This document shows, one piece after another, positions 11,266 to 51,511 of a stretch of DNA of 64,000 nucleotides (position 1 is its first letter; every line of letters begins with the position of its first letter). The notes beneath the pieces were generated by a model. It did no database searches. It was not told the origin of the DNA and worked only from the letters and a program-made list of their open reading frames with translations. Source of the stretch: Oligoflexales bacterium (GTDB taxonomy: Bacteria > Bdellovibrionota_B > Oligoflexia > Oligoflexales > RGVZ01); NCBI GenBank assembly GCA_947494335.1, contig CANLUT010000002.1, forward strand, positions 248,001 to 312,000. The letters are read 5' to 3'. Both the position numbers and the translations under genes were made by a program.

Positions 11266-11293
11266 AAAAAAGCCCGCCGATGGCGGGCTTTTT
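11266..11293 (+). terminator. Bidirectional intrinsic terminator
   Basis: A-run, GCCCGCC (11272-11278), loop GAT, GGCGGGC (11282-11288), then TTTTT. It serves the small coiled-coil gene on plus and the sigma-54 activator on minus. Confidence 0.92.
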
Positions 11294-11301
11294 ATTTGTG
11301 T

Positions 11302-12864
11302 CTACTCGCCGCCGGCCTTATCTAGGCCGTACTTTGAGATTTTGGAAATGAGGCTTGCACGACTCATTCCAAGCTCTTTAGCCAACCGTGAACGGTTATA
11401 GCGATGTTTGACAAGCCCATCGGAAATCATCTGCTTCTCAACTTCTTCCATGGTTCCTTTTAGGCTACCAGCAAACTTGATCTGAGACCCGGAAGATTTA
11501 ACAGTGTTTGTAATGCGCGGAGATAAAAACTCAGGGGTGATTTCCTTTTCGTCTCCCGCTAAGACACAAAGCCGTTCAACCTCATTTTCAAGTTCACGTA
11601 CGTTACCTGGCCAGTCGTAGTTCATAATCACTTCCATACAGTCAGAGGCGATCACCTTTGGCGGTTTGTTGGAATGCTTGGCATAAGCCACCAGAAAATG
11701 ATCTGTCAAAAGCTTGATGTCGTCTTTACGCTCGCGTAGCGGCGGAACCGTCACATTGATCACATTCAAGCGATAGTAAAGGTCTTCACGAAAGGTTCCG
11801 TCTTTTACCATCTTGGCAAGATCTCTGTTGGTCGCTGCAACAACCCTTACATTGGATTTACGAACTTGGCTGCTACCTACCGGAGAGAATGTCCCATCTT
11901 GGAGAACGCGTAGTAATTTCACCTGCATGGCCATACTCGTTTCACCGAGTTCGTCCATAAAAAGTGTCCCACCATCAGCTTCTTCAAATAATCCTTTTTT
12001 ATCCTTCACAGCACCAGTAAAGGAACCTTTGACATGCCCAAACAACTCGCTTTCAAGTAGATTTTCGTTGAATGCGCCGCAGTTAACAGGAATAAATCGA
12101 TTTTTCTTTCGCGGGCTATTGAAGTGGACGGCCTTAGCAATGAGCTCCTTACCCGTTCCATTTTCGCCTTGAACCAAAACCGTTGCATCACTTGCAGCAA
12201 CACGCTCAAGAAGCCGGTAAAGATTCTGCATTGGAGCAGATTTGCCAATCATATTGTGGAAACCGTAACGGTTTGAGAGCTGACTTCTTAGTTCATTTAC
12301 AGTTTCTTCCTGGTCGTTAATAGTTTTATGTGTCATGACGATTTCTTCGACCACAAGATTCACTAGCTCCGTTAAATAATCCAAATCCTTCGCGGACAAT
12401 ACGGGAAGCGCAGCAACCCAGTCTTGAATTTCAGCCCTCTTTTCGGGAAATGCTCGATCCATGTATTGTTTGATTGCAATTTTTTGCTGAGCCGCCGACT
12501 CTTCAATGACAAAGCCGTCACCAAACACGGTTCCAACAAATTGGCCATTGACACGAATGGGTACAGATACGGTCGAAAAGCCAGAGTGACATGATGAAAC
12601 TTTGAATCCTTTTGAGTTTGTCAAAGATGCCGTGGTCGAGCGTGCCGTTCCGCGGCAACCTTCAAAGCCCTTGCTGTTTTCTGTGATGGCTTTGCAGATG
12701 GGATTGAGCGGGTTAAAAAACTTGCCCTCAGGGACACCCCGCAGCAAGCCCTTCTGATCGGTAAAGTTGAGCTGAATCTTCCACCATTTACCCACGATTT
12801 CGCGAAGCTTGCGAATGACGTGGATCTTGTCGAACTCATCCCATCTTACATGCTGCTCAACCAT
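11302..12864 (-). CDS. Sigma-54-dependent activator with N-terminal PocR-type sensor
   Basis: A 520-residue enhancer-binding protein. A PocR-like ligand domain spans about 15-165, with cysteines in 'NPICKAI', 'FEGCRG' and 'SSCHSGF'. A short linker helix leads to the AAA+ domain: Walker A 'GENGTGKE' near 232, sigma-54 loop 'GSFTGA' near 280 and Walker B 'GGTLFMDELGE'. The C-terminus is a Fis-type HTH ('NRSRLAKELGMSRASLISKI'). There is no receiver domain, so a ligand or redox state would be sensed directly. ATG 12864 is preferred (GGGAG upstream); GTG 12909 and ATG 12897 are possible. A near-consensus sigma-28 promoter drives it. Confidence 0.92.
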   Translation of the reverse strand: MVEQHVRWDEFDKIHVIRKLREIVGKWWKIQLNFTDQKGLLRGVPEGKFFNPLNPICKAITENSKGFEGCRGTARSTTASLTNSKGFKVSSCHSGFSTVSVPIRVNGQFVGTVFGDGFVIEESAAQQKIAIKQYMDRAFPEKRAEIQDWVAALPVLSAKDLDYLTELVNLVVEEIVMTHKTINDQEETVNELRSQLSNRYGFHNMIGKSAPMQNLYRLLERVAASDATVLVQGENGTGKELIAKAVHFNSPRKKNRFIPVNCGAFNENLLESELFGHVKGSFTGAVKDKKGLFEEADGGTLFMDELGETSMAMQVKLLRVLQDGTFSPVGSSQVRKSNVRVVAATNRDLAKMVKDGTFREDLYYRLNVINVTVPPLRERKDDIKLLTDHFLVAYAKHSNKPPKVIASDCMEVIMNYDWPGNVRELENEVERLCVLAGDEKEITPEFLSPRITNTVKSSGSQIKFAGSLKGTMEEVEKQMISDGLVKHRYNRSRLAKELGMSRASLISKISKYGLDKAGGE

Positions 12865-12930
12865 GATGACACTCCCTACGTTTGCTGCACTGATCATACA
12901 AACTGTCACTTCCTTCGACAGACTGTAGGG

Positions 12931-12958
12931 ATATCGGCGTTAGTGCAAAAAAACTTTA
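12931..12958 (-). promoter_or_regulatory. Near-consensus sigma-28 promoter of the sigma-54 activator
   Basis: On minus TAAAGTTT (12958-12951), a 12-base spacer and GCCGATAT (12938-12931). Both boxes match the FliA consensus almost exactly; the spacer is one base longer than the usual 11. The transcript would begin near 12924, about 60 bases before the ATG at 12864. Confidence 0.75.
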
Positions 12959-13071
12959 CACCAATAAAATAGTATTATTTTCAGTTGGTTATATTCTATT
13001 TTGTAAAACTGGCGACAGCGTCAAACAAATGACAGCGCTTAGATGAACCCTTCTAGGCTTGGTAAAGGAGA

Positions 13072-13737
13072 CTAAACTCCTTCAACAATTTTCATGGATG
13101 ACGGCACCTCAAATGAAGTGCCTGGCATGTCCTCGGACGAAGGATTTGAAAAAATAAATTCCGAGGTGTTTTTATTTGCAAATGACATTTTCAAAGAGCG
13201 CACATAGTAGTTTTTGTTATCTATATTAATATTGATGACCGACACGGCTCCAGGCTGCTTCGGGTTCAAAGTCAGAATAAGATCCTTATTTAGGCGCGCT
13301 GATTTAACAATTTGGTAGCGCTTTAGCAGTGAGTCAAAATCCATGACAAAATCGATGACCTCTTTGATCTCAGAGGTTCGCTCACCTTGAGTCGAAAACC
13401 TGGTTGCGGCCTTGTCTGTTGGCTTAAAACTGTACAAATTTTTTCCATCAAAAATTAGAATATCAGCCTGAGGCTTTTCAATTTCCCATCTAAATCTTGC
13501 TGGCTTTGCAAAAAGTGCTTTTCCAGATGACTTCGATGGCTTCTTAGGACGAAGTGCGCTTGTACGTAGCTGTAAAAAATCTACCCGTAAGTTTTTCCTT
13601 GAGCTTAATTTAGTTTGAACTTCGCGGAGCTCTTCCGTACTCAGAGCCTCTTCTACAAAATTTTCCGCTGCAGCGGCCTCAACTAAATACGACGCAGAAA
13701 AAAAACTAATTATGACTCTGAAGATAATGCTGTTCAT
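13072..13737 (-). CDS. lolA: Outer-membrane lipoprotein carrier protein LolA
   Basis: Periplasmic chaperone that moves lipoproteins from LolCDE to the outer membrane. The 221-residue protein has a signal peptide ending around 'VEAAAAENF' (residues 18-26). The diagnostic LolA block follows: 'DFLQLRTSALRP', 'KPARFRWEIEKPQADILIFD' and 'GKNLYSFKP' (about 53-105). It is divergent from fadD with a 92-base spacer containing GTGCGCAC at 13758-13765. No LolB is seen here. The upstream neighbour on the same strand is the sigma-54 activator, 207 bases downstream, so it is probably transcribed alone. Confidence 0.9.
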   Translation of the reverse strand: MNSIIFRVIISFFSASYLVEAAAAENFVEEALSTEELREVQTKLSSRKNLRVDFLQLRTSALRPKKPSKSSGKALFAKPARFRWEIEKPQADILIFDGKNLYSFKPTDKAATRFSTQGERTSEIKEVIDFVMDFDSLLKRYQIVKSARLNKDLILTLNPKQPGAVSVININIDNKNYYVRSLKMSFANKNTSEFIFSNPSSEDMPGTSFEVPSSMKIVEGV

Positions 13738-20742: not shown

Positions 20743-21618
20743 TTAACGAAGCAGTGCAAGTGCTTGCTCAGGAGCAACGTTTGCTTGTTGGAGAACGGCT
20801 GTTGTGGACTGAGTCAAAATACGACTCTGGGTCAGTTCAGCGGTTTCCGAAGCAAAGTCTACGTCTTTGATACGGCTCTTCGCAGTTTCCATGTTTTCAA
20901 CGTTGATCGAGAGGTTTGACAGAGCGCTACCTAGACGGCTCTGAACTGAACCCAGCGTCGCGCGCTCGCTTGCGATCTTGTTGAGTGCTTCGTCAATTGT
21001 GTTTAGTTTGGAAGAAATGTTTTCCAAGGATGGGCTGTCATCGCCGTCAATACCACCAATTTCAGAACCTTTGCCAAGACCGAGATCTTCGGTGTTGAAC
21101 TTAAGCCCTGCAAGGCTGATGGCGATCGTATCGGTGTTCTGCTCTGGAAGTGTTCCGTTGGTACCAACTTGGATAACAAATTGATCACGATCGGAATCCT
21201 TATCGAAGATCTTGATGCCGTTAAACTCAGTAGAGTTTCCGATACGATCAATTTCATCTGCAAGCTGAACAAATTCCCGGTTTAGGAATGAGCGCTCACG
21301 ATCACCGAGAGTATCGGTAGAAGACTGCACGGTGAGTTCGCGAAGACGAATCAAGATGTTTGTCATCTCGTTCATACTTCCTTCGGCAACCTGCACCATC
21401 GAAACTGCATCGTTGGCATTTCTTTTTGCCACGTTTAGTCCGCGGATCTTACCTCTGAGGCTTTCAGAGATGGCGAGACCTGCAGCGTCATCTGCAGACT
21501 TGTTGATTCGGTAACCCGACGAGAGTCGTTCCATGCTCTTGTTTAATGCCTCTTTGTTGTCAGACATGAAACGTTGAGCGGTTAAGGCAGGCACGTTAGT
21601 TCTAATACGCATTCCCAT
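20743..21618 (-). CDS. fliC: Flagellin 3
   Basis: A 291-residue flagellin with N-terminal block 'MGMRIRTNVPALTAQRFMS', 'LSSGYRINKSADDAAGLAIS' and C-terminal block 'KSRIKDVDFASETAELTQSR' ending 'QALALLR'. The hypervariable domain is nearly absent (about 160-195). ATG 21618 has AAGGAGG upstream. A sigma-28-like promoter lies at 21700-21726. The last residues (EQALALLR) differ from EIVMQLLR and FALQLLRG in the other copies, so the three are not recent duplicates. Confidence 0.96.
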   Translation of the reverse strand: MGMRIRTNVPALTAQRFMSDNKEALNKSMERLSSGYRINKSADDAAGLAISESLRGKIRGLNVAKRNANDAVSMVQVAEGSMNEMTNILIRLRELTVQSSTDTLGDRERSFLNREFVQLADEIDRIGNSTEFNGIKIFDKDSDRDQFVIQVGTNGTLPEQNTDTIAISLAGLKFNTEDLGLGKGSEIGGIDGDDSPSLENISSKLNTIDEALNKIASERATLGSVQSRLGSALSNLSINVENMETAKSRIKDVDFASETAELTQSRILTQSTTAVLQQANVAPEQALALLR

Positions 21619-21699: not shown

Positions 21700-21726
21700 T
21701 GATCGAGGGATTTGGTAAAAACTTTA
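21700..21726 (-). promoter_or_regulatory. Sigma-28-like promoter of flagellin 3
   Basis: On minus TAAAGTTT (21726-21719) is an exact FliA -35. After 11 bases comes CTCGATCA (21707-21700), a 5/8 match to GCCGATAA. About 82 bases lie between the -10 and the ATG. It probably serves flagellins 3 and 2. Confidence 0.65.
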
Positions 21727-39812: not shown

Positions 39813-40895
39813 TTATTGCTGGTGATTACCACCACTAATAATTGACCGAAGACGCTCGCTCATTGCCTCGATTGAAAACTCTGCTTTTGCCGCAAGCGCT
39901 CGCGACTGACGAGTCGTTGAGGTTTCCTCATGAGACGCCGTGAGCACATCAAATATAATCTTTGCTGCGCCAGGAGTTTCATGACTGATGTAAGAGGCCC
40001 CAAATTCAGGTCGAACGAAGACCTCTGGAAGAGATCCAACAGCCGTTGCAACTACCGGCGTTCCGCATAACAGAAACTCCTCGGCGACCCTGCATATAAG
40101 TTCGCTGCCCAAACTCGACACGACGCCCAGAGAAACCTTTGACATGAGTTCTGCAGTATTGCTGATTCGATCACACTGGATATTGAAATCATCCTGGGAG
40201 AGGCCGATCGTTTTGGCGTGTTCGATCAAATGTGTTTTAGAAAGGTTTGCAGGTAATCCAAGAATACGCAGGCGTGGTCTCGCACCACCGTGGAGATCTG
40301 AGAGTGCCAAGATTTTCGTAAAAAGCGACATAAACTCTCGGTGGCCTTTAACGGGGTCTAGCCGCCCAAAAATCAAAAGCTCCGGTCGCTCTGCTCGCTG
40401 TAAATTCTTAAACTCATAGAGGGAGGAATCAATACCCAAGGTGACGGCCTCTACAGAACAACCGACATCACCCATGAGTCCAGCGGCAAGTGCCCGCGAA
40501 GGCGTCAAAACAGTATCGACATGCAGATGTCCAATTTTTCGTGTTGTGCGCTGCAAGGATCCTGCGGAGTGAATTCCGTGGCCATGGAATCGAACCAGCT
40601 TTGATTTTCCTTTGAAAAAAAAGGCGGCCGTCGTTTCCGGACCTCCGTAGGTCATGATCACGTCGGGAGCAAACTCTTTATTAATAGCCGCAAGTCTCGA
40701 AAAGCGTCCCGGTCCAAAACCGTCGATCGACTTCAAAGCAAATCCTGCGACTTTAAATCTTGTCTCTATTGGGCTTTCAGCTAAGCATGTTATTAAAGAC
40801 TCGGCCCCCAAAAGCCGCATGGCCTTAGCGGCACTCAACGCATACTCACTGATGGCGCTATTCCATCTGTTTGATATGAGGTGCCAGACCTTCAT
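39813..40895 (-). CDS. Glycosyltransferase family 4 (GT-B)
   Basis: A 360-residue GT-B enzyme, probably of lipopolysaccharide or capsule synthesis. The C-terminal half has the family fingerprints 'LLIFGRLDPVKGHREFM' (nucleotide-sugar loop, about 174-190) and 'SELICRVAEEFLLCGTPVVA' (E-x7-E-type region, about 270-289). The N-terminal half ('TYGGPETTAAFFFKGKSKLV') is the acceptor domain. It overlaps the GT2 gene by four bases (ATGA), indicating coupling. It ends immediately beside ftsK on the opposite strand. Confidence 0.85.
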   Translation of the reverse strand: MKVWHLISNRWNSAISEYALSAAKAMRLLGAESLITCLAESPIETRFKVAGFALKSIDGFGPGRFSRLAAINKEFAPDVIMTYGGPETTAAFFFKGKSKLVRFHGHGIHSAGSLQRTTRKIGHLHVDTVLTPSRALAAGLMGDVGCSVEAVTLGIDSSLYEFKNLQRAERPELLIFGRLDPVKGHREFMSLFTKILALSDLHGGARPRLRILGLPANLSKTHLIEHAKTIGLSQDDFNIQCDRISNTAELMSKVSLGVVSSLGSELICRVAEEFLLCGTPVVATAVGSLPEVFVRPEFGASYISHETPGAAKIIFDVLTASHEETSTTRQSRALAAKAEFSIEAMSERLRSIISGGNHQQ

Positions 40896-41704
40896 TTTCC
40901 ACCTGAAGCATCACGGTAAAGTTCGCGCAGTTTTGCGTATTTAACAAAGCCGTAAAAGCTTCCAAATAGTGCCCAAAGAAATCCTGGCCACCCGTCAAGA
41001 AACCCAAGCTTGATGATATAGCGCGAAAGAAAATCAACCGGCAACCGCAACGCAAGCAATAATTCTGGCGGGCATGGTCTTGAAGCATCAAAGCGCGCTT
41101 TTGCCATCATGGATGTATACCGATTAAATCGCGCAAAATAGTCATCAAGATCATAATAACTCCAATGCCAAAGCGTGCCGGGAAGCAACTCGATTGTGGC
41201 ATTTGGATGCGGAACTAGTTTTTCGTGGATTTCATTTTGATACTTGGATGAGCCGGTCTTGAATAGACGAACGACGCGGTCCATGGAGCGCCCATGGGTT
41301 AGGGGCTTACCCTGAAAGACAAGGCGCCTACGCAAGGAGTAAACCTTGAGATCAGTTGCCTCTTGCGCAGTGACGGCTGAGATCTTTTGCCACAAGTCGG
41401 CATCTGGCCTTTCGTCAGCGTCTAAGCAAAGCGTCCAGGTTCTAGTTGCCTGTGCGATGGCAAAGTTTTTTTGGGATGCATAGCCGTCAAAGTCACGCTT
41501 AAAAACTTTGGCCCCAAAGGACTCTGCAATAGCGCAAGTATCATCAGCACTGCCACTATCGACCAAAACAATTTCAGCCCCCTTCGGAATATCCGGAAGG
41601 AGGCTTTTAAGGTTTCGTGATTCGTTTAGAGTAATGATGACAACCGAAAGGTTATCACCTAACGCTTTCGAGTTTAATCTTGATTGGAGAACGACGCCGC
41701 CCAT
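40892..41704 (-). CDS. Glycosyltransferase family 2, LPS-core type (WaaE-like)
   Basis: A 270-residue GT-A enzyme. The nucleotide-binding start 'NLSVVIITLNESRNLKSLLP' (about 18-37), 'VLVDSGSADDTCAIAESFGA' and the metal motif 'CLDADERPD' (DxD, about 95) are clear. 'HEKLVPHPNATIELLPG' and the 'WSYYDLDDYFARFNRYTS' region resemble core glucosyltransferases such as WaaE. It overlaps the downstream GT4 gene and the upstream small exported protein gene (31 bases). The ATG at 41704 has a weak ribosome site. It is probably part of an LPS-core pair. Confidence 0.85.
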   Translation of the reverse strand: MGGVVLQSRLNSKALGDNLSVVIITLNESRNLKSLLPDIPKGAEIVLVDSGSADDTCAIAESFGAKVFKRDFDGYASQKNFAIAQATRTWTLCLDADERPDADLWQKISAVTAQEATDLKVYSLRRRLVFQGKPLTHGRSMDRVVRLFKTGSSKYQNEIHEKLVPHPNATIELLPGTLWHWSYYDLDDYFARFNRYTSMMAKARFDASRPCPPELLLALRLPVDFLSRYIIKLGFLDGWPGFLWALFGSFYGFVKYAKLRELYRDASGGK

Positions 41705-42027: not shown

Positions 42028-42211
42028 AAACAACTCCCGAATCAACATTCCGCTTAATTCATTCCAGCAACAGCTACTTAATCCTCTATCAAGCCCCCAC
42101 AGGAGCTCTCAAGAGGCGCAATTGCAATGCCCGTACCAGGTGTTTTTTCAAGTTATTACAGGTATTTATAAAAAACCTGCTGTCCTGCCACGAGTCAAAC
42201 TGTCTGCTTCA

Positions 42212-42240
42212 TTGACAGTGGGGGGGGCCTAGCCTAAAGT
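42212..42240 (+). promoter_or_regulatory. Candidate sigma-70 promoter of gcvTH
   Basis: Perfect TTGACA (42212-42217), a 17-base spacer and TAAAGT (42235-42240), about 49 bases before the GTG of gcvT. A CAGGT/ACCTG hairpin with a T/A stem lies just upstream (about 42136-42180). Confidence 0.6.
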
Positions 42241-50032: not shown

Positions 50033-51511
50033 TTAAAAAGGCTTTCGTCTCTTGCTACTAGGAAGAATCCCCGCCTGCTCGCGGTATTTGGCAATGGTTC
50101 GACGGCTGATATCAATATTTTCTTTGGCCAGCATTTCCATGATTTGCTGATCTGACAGCGGCTTGTTGACGTCTTCTGCCTTGACGATCTCGTTGATGCG
50201 ACTTTTCACGGCCTCGTTGGCAACACTCTCACCATCACTTCGGCCAATCGCACTGTTGAAGAAAAATTTAAGTTCGAAAATACCTCGCGGGGTATGTACA
50301 TATTTATTTGTAGTGACCCGGCTGATTGTAGACTCATGAAGCTCAAGAGCGTCGGCGATATCCCGAAGCACCATGGGTTTCAAATATTGAATCCCATATT
50401 CGAAAAAGTCCTTTTGACGCTCAAGAATTTTTTCCATGACGCGGTGAATGGTCCGCTGCCGCTGCTCCATGCTTTTAATGATCCAGCGTGCACTTTTAAT
50501 CTTGTCATCAAGATAGTCTTTACCTTCACTCTTCTTTACTGCCTGCGCCTTTTGATCCTTAAGCATGTCTTTATAGAACGGGCTAACCTTAAGTCGCGGT
50601 AGTCCGTCTTCATTCATACTGACCGCCCACTCACCGCCAAGCTTAAAGACATAAACATCGGGGATAATGTACTGTGGTGCGTCTGGACCAAACTGACGTC
50701 CAGGAATCGGATCAAGGCCGGCGATAACCGCTACATTTGAGTACACTTGCTCCAGGGGAACGCCGAGGGCCTTGGCGACGGCTGAATAATTTCGATTTTC
50801 CAAATCATGGAGGTGGTTGCTTACAATGCGCTCGACGATGCCATTTCGAAGCTTGAAGTGTCTGATTTGAATTAATAGACACTCTCTCAAATCACGTGCA
50901 CCAACTCCGGGCGGGTCGAAATGTTGAATGGTATCTAATACGCCTTCGGCAGTTTCAAGATCAAAACTCTCTTTTTCGGCAAGCTCCTCAATAGACATAA
51001 CAAGATAGCCGCGGTCATCGATATTCCCAGAAATCTGCTCTGCAATGGCTCTTTCGCGATCCGAAAAATCAATCTCGCGAGACTGATCAAGGACATACTC
51101 TTGTAGCGTGGCCGCCTTGGTTACAATGTTTTCGTAATTGGGGGACTCATCGTCGGAGTTATTCTTAGAGCCGCCACTTGATGCCTGATGTCTTGACTCT
51201 TCGTAATTGGATAGCCTCTCCCAATCAACCTCGTTTTCCTTATTTTTGCTCACCTGGTCGACAATGGAAGACGCTTCTTCAAGACGTCCTTTTACAGCTT
51301 CCGTCTCGGTAAACTCGCGCTCCATCGATGTGTAGTCGTCGGTGGACTCTGCCGAAACTTCTTCCAAGACCGGGTTTTCCGCCATCTGAGTTTCAACAAA
51401 TTGCTCAAGCTCAAGCCTGGACAGCTGCAAAAGTTTGATGGCTTGCTGCAGCTGCGGGGTCATCGTCAATGATTGACCGAGACCTATCGTTTGACCAATT
51501 TTTATTGCCAT
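50033..51511 (-). CDS. rpoN: RNA polymerase sigma-54 factor
   Basis: Alternative sigma factor that needs AAA+ activators, one of which is encoded at 11302-12864. The 492-residue protein has the Gln/Leu-rich region I ('GLGQSLTMTPQLQQAIKLLQ'), an acidic region II (about 50-130), a core-binding region III, and the RpoN box 'SRRTIAKYRE' at about 469-478 for -24 recognition. ATG 51511. The gap to lptB is 156 bases and no hpf gene follows; rapZ starts directly after the stop. Confidence 0.97.
   Translation of the reverse strand: MAIKIGQTIGLGQSLTMTPQLQQAIKLLQLSRLELEQFVETQMAENPVLEEVSAESTDDYTSMEREFTETEAVKGRLEEASSIVDQVSKNKENEVDWERLSNYEESRHQASSGGSKNNSDDESPNYENIVTKAATLQEYVLDQSREIDFSDRERAIAEQISGNIDDRGYLVMSIEELAEKESFDLETAEGVLDTIQHFDPPGVGARDLRECLLIQIRHFKLRNGIVERIVSNHLHDLENRNYSAVAKALGVPLEQVYSNVAVIAGLDPIPGRQFGPDAPQYIIPDVYVFKLGGEWAVSMNEDGLPRLKVSPFYKDMLKDQKAQAVKKSEGKDYLDDKIKSARWIIKSMEQRQRTIHRVMEKILERQKDFFEYGIQYLKPMVLRDIADALELHESTISRVTTNKYVHTPRGIFELKFFFNSAIGRSDGESVANEAVKSRINEIVKAEDVNKPLSDQQIMEMLAKENIDISRRTIAKYREQAGILPSSKRRKPF

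Follow-up and report, generated by a model that had tools for sequence, protein, structure and literature searches.

The 64,000-nucleotide stretch of DNA that we analysed, in the following called the window, carries on its minus strand the gene of a sigma-54 activator, which is preceded by a promoter of the FliA (sigma-28) type and by a palindrome. The following features were found at this locus, together with the gene of the partner sigma factor:

11266..11290, minus: hairpin AAGCCCGCCATCGGCGGGCTTTTTT resembling an intrinsic terminator, behind the activator gene, read from the sequence
11302..12864, minus: activator gene, encoding a PocR - AAA+ sigma-54 activator - Fis-type HTH protein (bEBP) of 520 aa, from Pfam domains and conserved motifs
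12904..12920, minus: palindrome TGTCGAAGGAAGTGACA (TGTC-N9-GACA), putative operator over the 5' end of the activator transcript, conserved in the genus and also present near the gene elsewhere
12924..12926, minus: predicted transcription start, about 5-7 nt past the -10 element, from sigma-28 promoter geometry
12931..12958, minus: FliA (sigma-28)-type promoter TAAAGTTT-N12-GCCGATAT, from sequence and conservation upstream of orthologues
13019..13034, minus: second palindrome, half-conserved, TGTC-N8-GAC, upstream of the promoter, shared by about 4 of the 6 genus members, with weaker evidence
50033..51511, minus: RpoN (sigma-54), one in the genome, from a family search

The encoded protein contains four Pfam domains (PF10114, PF00158, PF25601 and PF02954), among them the PocR domain PF10114 with 53.8 bits against a curated cut-off of 23.9, the AAA+ sigma-54 interaction domain PF00158 (E 1.7e-71) and the Fis-type DNA-binding domain PF02954. 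Walker A (GENGTGKE), Walker B (LFMDE) and a GSFTGA loop are present, and Walker A and the loop are kept in 17 orthologues. All NCBIfam equivalog cut-offs are missed, FlbD/FlgR being among those far below, and the solved structures nearest by sequence are NifA, ZraR and FleQ. The protein shows no family signature of a flagellar master activator of the FleQ/FlrC type, and its promoter would place it below FliA. The start codon ATG 12864 is backed by a ribosome-binding-site-like GGGAG that is kept in the genus; alternative in-frame starts upstream are GTG 12909 and an ATG. In most of the order, the gene immediately preceding that of the activator is lolA-like (13072-13737 in the window), and read-through from lolA could be another source of activator transcription.

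The promoter before the activator gene

The original prediction had placed near-perfect sigma-28 boxes, 12 bases apart on the minus strand, before the ATG of the activator gene, and this is what the sequence contains: TAAAGTTT (12958-12951) is followed by the 12-nt spacer TTTTGCACTAAC (12950-12939) and by GCCGATAT (12938-12931), with 66 nt between the -10 box and ATG 12864. The -35 has the form TAAAG(TTT), the -10 is GCCGATAA-like, and the spacing is proper for such a promoter. The spacer exceeds the 11 nt of E. coli and the enterics by one base and agrees exactly with the Bdellovibrio consensus. This consensus, TTAAG-N16-CCGATA, is reported for 92 of the 140 attack-phase promoters mapped in B. 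bacteriovorus and ascribed there to FliA (PMC3627812).

A promoter-like sequence of this kind might arise by chance, and loose forms of the motif indeed occur at background frequency in this genome. TAAA-N14-17-GCCGATA gave 16 matches compared to 15 in the reversed control; genome-wide enrichment of the loose motif was thus rejected, and only extended matches are meaningful. Because the loose motif is not enriched, the FliA regulon of this genome looks small. A full 15/15 match with a spacer of 11 or 12, however, is expected only about 0.012 times by chance in the whole genome on both strands. The activator site is by far the best FliA-type match within the window (15/15, runner-up 12/15), and the 3.34-Mb genome contains only one other TAAAGTTT..GCCGATA site, C5:34243, both having the 12-nt spacer.

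The site at C5:34243 (L013) stands before a lipoprotein gene. Further FliA-type sites with a 12-nt spacer are located directly before lipoprotein or secreted-protein genes at C1:1194050 (L004), C3:27827 (L008) and C3:30723 (L009), which suggests a non-flagellar FliA regulon here too.

The activator is present in 52 of the 56 genomes searched, and the FliA-type site is found at a conserved position before the orthologous genes. It is retained down to 48% protein identity, with the surrounding intergenic DNA not conserved, and in the alignment of the genus, conservation is concentrated in the boxes, the palindrome and the ribosome-binding site, within DNA that is otherwise poorly conserved. Nearly every family of the order has such a site upstream of the activator (for example TGTAAAGTTTTTGGCCGCTCCTGCCGATAG), another family of the class has it with a GCCGAAA -10 box, and outgroup sites with variant -10 elements were found in Bdellovibrio sp. 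MAG_58 (TAAAGTTTGTCTACTTTGTTGACGATAA), Halobacteriovorax marinus (TAAAGATTTCCTTTTAAGTGCCGAAAA) and Bacteriovoracaceae SI034 (TCAAGTTTTACGAAATAAGTGCCGAAAA). The mean score of the FliA site in 54 upstream regions was 12.5, compared to 9.2 for the reversed sequences and 9.5 for the other strand. When each upstream region was compared to its dinucleotide shuffles, the site reached p<0.05 at 40 of 54 loci and p<0.01 at 37 of 54; since the loci are mutually related, they amount to fewer than 54 independent tests, but the result is shared by many families and by the three named outgroups. Many of the remaining loci have degenerate forms at the same place, are located at a contig edge or belong to genomes without a flagellum. 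Comparison between genomes therefore establishes the FliA-type site and its deep conservation as sequence features, and conservation at the same place over the whole class and beyond refutes a chance match in practice, leaving it a negligible probability.

A wider search of the phylum returned matches from the same class only. The gene bd0931 of B. bacteriovorus was considered as an orthologue of the activator and rejected, as it is annotated as MerR.

The genome encodes a single FliA above the family cut-off (273 bits, cut-off 189.6), and the other matches of this search are, by length and score, an RpoD-like protein, an RpoH-like protein and a fragment. The fliA gene is found in the usual arrangement flhA-flhF-flhG-fliA-cheY (names other than fliA and flhA were read from the sequence). 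One clear FliA and a site that persists before the orthologous gene even in very distant relatives give strong comparative support to the proposal that FliA feeds a sigma-54 activator. Transcription of the activator gene by FliA is very likely on these grounds, and we infer that the promoter is used in vivo.

The flagellin genes can serve as a weak positive control only, since most of those examined in this genome have no clear FliA site. The main flagellin gene (20743-21618, minus) has a FliA-like site at 21726 with a perfect -35 TAAAGTTT and a degraded -10 CTCGATCA; this weak -10 form is conserved across the order and contrasts with the strong activator site. That the main flagellin, the best-known FliA target, is without the strong -10 of the activator promoter counts against the FliA reading.

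Eight relatives have neither flagellin nor FlhA yet encode clear FliA and RpoN proteins (G011, G012, G015, G019, G020, G021, G028 and G040). Seven of them retain the activator, and the upstream site is significant in one of these seven, whereas among the other loci it is significant in 35 of 43 (Fisher p about 0.001, without correction for kinship). Since the site is mostly lost in the flagellum-less relatives, the coupling of FliA to the activator seems to be useful mainly in flagellated lineages.

It might also be that the promoter is real and serves another sigma factor of the sigma-70 family, with the likeness to FliA confined to the boxes. The -10 of the flagellin promoters, weaker than at the activator site, and the loss of the activator site in relatives with FliA but without flagella would both fit this explanation. 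However, no other protein of the genome passes the FliA family cut-off, the motif is identical to that mapped for FliA in Bdellovibrio (PMC3627812), and the region 12800-13150 contains no sigma-70-type match. A different sigma factor is thus distinctly improbable, and FliA is preferred.

A palindrome at the activator gene and at sigma-54 promoters

In 6 of 6 genus members TGTC-N9-GACA is located just past the predicted start, in the window at about +5 to +21 of the predicted FliA transcript. Other lineages have it near the activator gene at differing positions and several lineages are without it there; among the genomes with TGTC-N5-12-GACA near the gene, the spacing is N9 in nearly all. By chance, TGTC-N9-GACA is expected about 0.005 times per 300 nt. 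In part of one family (f8, L027-L032), the place behind the start site is taken not by TGTC-N9-GACA but by a TAGTCA..TGACTA-like palindrome, which looks like a change of operator.

A palindrome located behind a transcription start might act in the RNA, as a 5' stem or attenuator, instead of being a DNA operator. A terminator-like stem of 6 pairs was scored at the palindrome (CTGTCGAAGGAAGTGACAG then TTTGTATG), but the predicted structure is no more stable than that of shuffled sequences (z -0.63) and the same palindrome is found upstream of sigma-54 promoters, outside the transcript. The RNA hairpin was rejected on its stability, and we consider it very improbable.

Throughout the genome, TGTC-N9-GACA occurs 69 times compared to 37 times for the reversed pattern. 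A sigma-54 promoter scoring at least 10/11 lies 30-150 nt after the palindrome at 7 of 49 sites, where about 0.1 would be expected from a background of 0.24% of random window places (binomial p about 4e-11); these statistics cover 49 of the 69 palindrome sites in one genome. Palindromes are thus paired more often than by chance with strong -24/-12 promoters, which they precede by about 70-130 nt, and this layout, as far as it can be read from the DNA, is that of a sigma-54 activator enhancer. Several of these enhancers share the extended form CTGTC-N9-GACAgTTTGT with the operator at the activator gene. The association of the palindrome with sigma-54 promoters, like the palindrome itself, is established by sequence comparison.

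The genes behind the paired promoters encode a lipoprotein-type DNA/RNA endonuclease (PF01223), lipoproteins, small exported proteins, glycosyltransferases and some products of unrecognised type. Starting from the promoters instead of the palindromes led to an M14 carboxypeptidase gene, which is likewise preceded by the palindrome. One of the predicted target loci is located in the window:

42201..42217, minus: TGTC-N9-GACA enhancer TGTCAATGAAGCAGACA, from the palindrome scan
42123..42138, minus: sigma-54 promoter TGGTACGGGCATTGCA, matching the consensus at 10/11 positions, at a distance of 79 nt from the enhancer start, from the sequence score
41674..42048, minus: predicted target, small exported protein of 124 aa, downstream of enhancer and sigma-54 promoter
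40892-41704 and 39813-40895, minus: two glycosyltransferase genes after the small exported protein, predicted target operon

At the orthologous locus of a congener, the enhancer is found 100 nt before a perfect TGGCACATACCTTGCT. A further sigma-54-like promoter of the window, TGGCATTTAAGTTGCT (3698-3683, minus), stands before an ORF of 87 codons and is without a TGTC-N9-GACA enhancer.

Since the palindrome is found both at the gene of the PocR activator and in front of sigma-54 promoters, the simplest reading is that the PocR activator binds to it. This assignment is likely, and it is from the sequence pattern that we infer binding by this protein and not by another bEBP. In a different arrangement, FliA would still drive the activator gene, whereas the palindrome would be the enhancer of a different bEBP that runs the sigma-54 regulon and also regulates the PocR gene, the PocR regulon being separate. 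Several bEBP-like ORFs are probably present in the genome (a loose first look gave 23 candidates), and a comparison of recognition helices assigned the palindrome to no particular bEBP. Nevertheless, recurrence at the activator gene in separate lineages at a shifted position is typical of autoregulation, and a bEBP motif was found at only one other palindrome site, in coding sequence (flanks were scanned short, 400 to 1500 nt). A different bEBP is therefore unlikely, and the PocR activator is kept as the probable owner of the palindrome.

No -24/-12 promoter was seen over the activator's own gene. With the palindrome at +5 to +21 and no such promoter, binding should repress, giving negative feedback. 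Repression of its own FliA promoter by the activator is plausible, and we lean slightly towards it. The suggestion that this locus is part of a relay or feedback gains support from the operator/enhancer that the activator gene shares with sigma-54 promoters.

A proposed relay and its counterparts in other bacteria

We propose that RNA polymerase with FliA uses the promoter at 12958..12931 to transcribe the gene of the PocR-type sigma-54 activator, which would thus be produced while the cell is motile and FliA active. Probably controlled by a small ligand of its PocR domain, the activator would bind TGTC-N9-GACA sites located about 70-130 nt before -24/-12 promoters and, together with RpoN, open these promoters. 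This step would turn on exported and envelope proteins, namely the lipoprotein nuclease, lipoproteins, the glycosyltransferase operon and possibly the carboxypeptidase, and the copy of the operator that overlaps the start of the activator transcript would block FliA transcription as negative feedback. For this model as a whole, from FliA through the PocR activator to the sigma-54 regulon, with autorepression, we estimate a probability of about two in three.

The textbook order, in which sigma-54 activators lead to FliA, thus appears to be reversed here, and the reversed arrangement is kept over a class and predatory relatives. Secreted enzymes and surface proteins are the probable targets of the regulator, so that motility may prime the next stage of life. 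More tentatively, and at slightly less than even odds, we suggest a conserved relay from motility to sigma-54 in Bdellovibrio-like bacteria, in which a ligand-sensing, self-repressing activator would translate a cue into secreted degradative enzymes and envelope proteins, leaving swimming cells pre-armed for the next stage. With a named promoter, an operator sequence and a list of targets, the passage from swimming to the next stage in Bdellovibrio-like cells, a long-open question, becomes directly testable.

The closest counterpart is the attack-phase FliA regulon of B. bacteriovorus, which has the same promoter consensus and spacing as the activator site. Bdellovibrio FliA controls non-flagellar exported proteins and some transcription factors (PMC3627812, PMC5430801), bd0931 and bd1891 being named as FliA-driven regulators (PMC3627812); it could not be deleted and is held to be essential, and in an E. 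coli reporter assay it switched on the promoters of flagellin and flp1 (PMC5430801). Non-flagellar regulators under FliA are not new, being known in Bdellovibrio (PMC3627812). Unlike here, the passages and papers that we covered describe no sigma-54 activator or relay in the regulon. The limited literature that we covered contained no paper on a sigma-54 activator below FliA in this group or on a TGTC-N9-GACA-type enhancer.

A precedent for FliA without flagella is Legionella oakridgensis (PMC5655016), which resembles the eight flagellum-less relatives that keep FliA; unlike in this comparison, flagellar loss here is mostly accompanied by loss of the activator's FliA-type site.

The activator shares with bEBPs of the NifA/NtrC/ZraR type the AAA+ core, the Fis-type HTH and the use of a palindromic enhancer some 100 nt before the -24/-12 promoter. 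It differs in its PocR sensory domain, in GSFTGA instead of GAFTGA in most orthologues, in missing the NCBIfam equivalogs and in its TGTC-N9-GACA enhancer. The enhancer of NifA is TGT-N10-ACA.

In the polar flagellar cascades of Pseudomonas, Vibrio and Legionella, the sigma-54 activators FleQ/FlrA and FlrC/FleR are located above FliA (PMC5655016). These cascades and the system described here have in common that sigma-54 activators and FliA are part of one network; unlike in the FleQ/FlrC cascades, the PocR-type activator would act below FliA and its predicted targets are non-flagellar.
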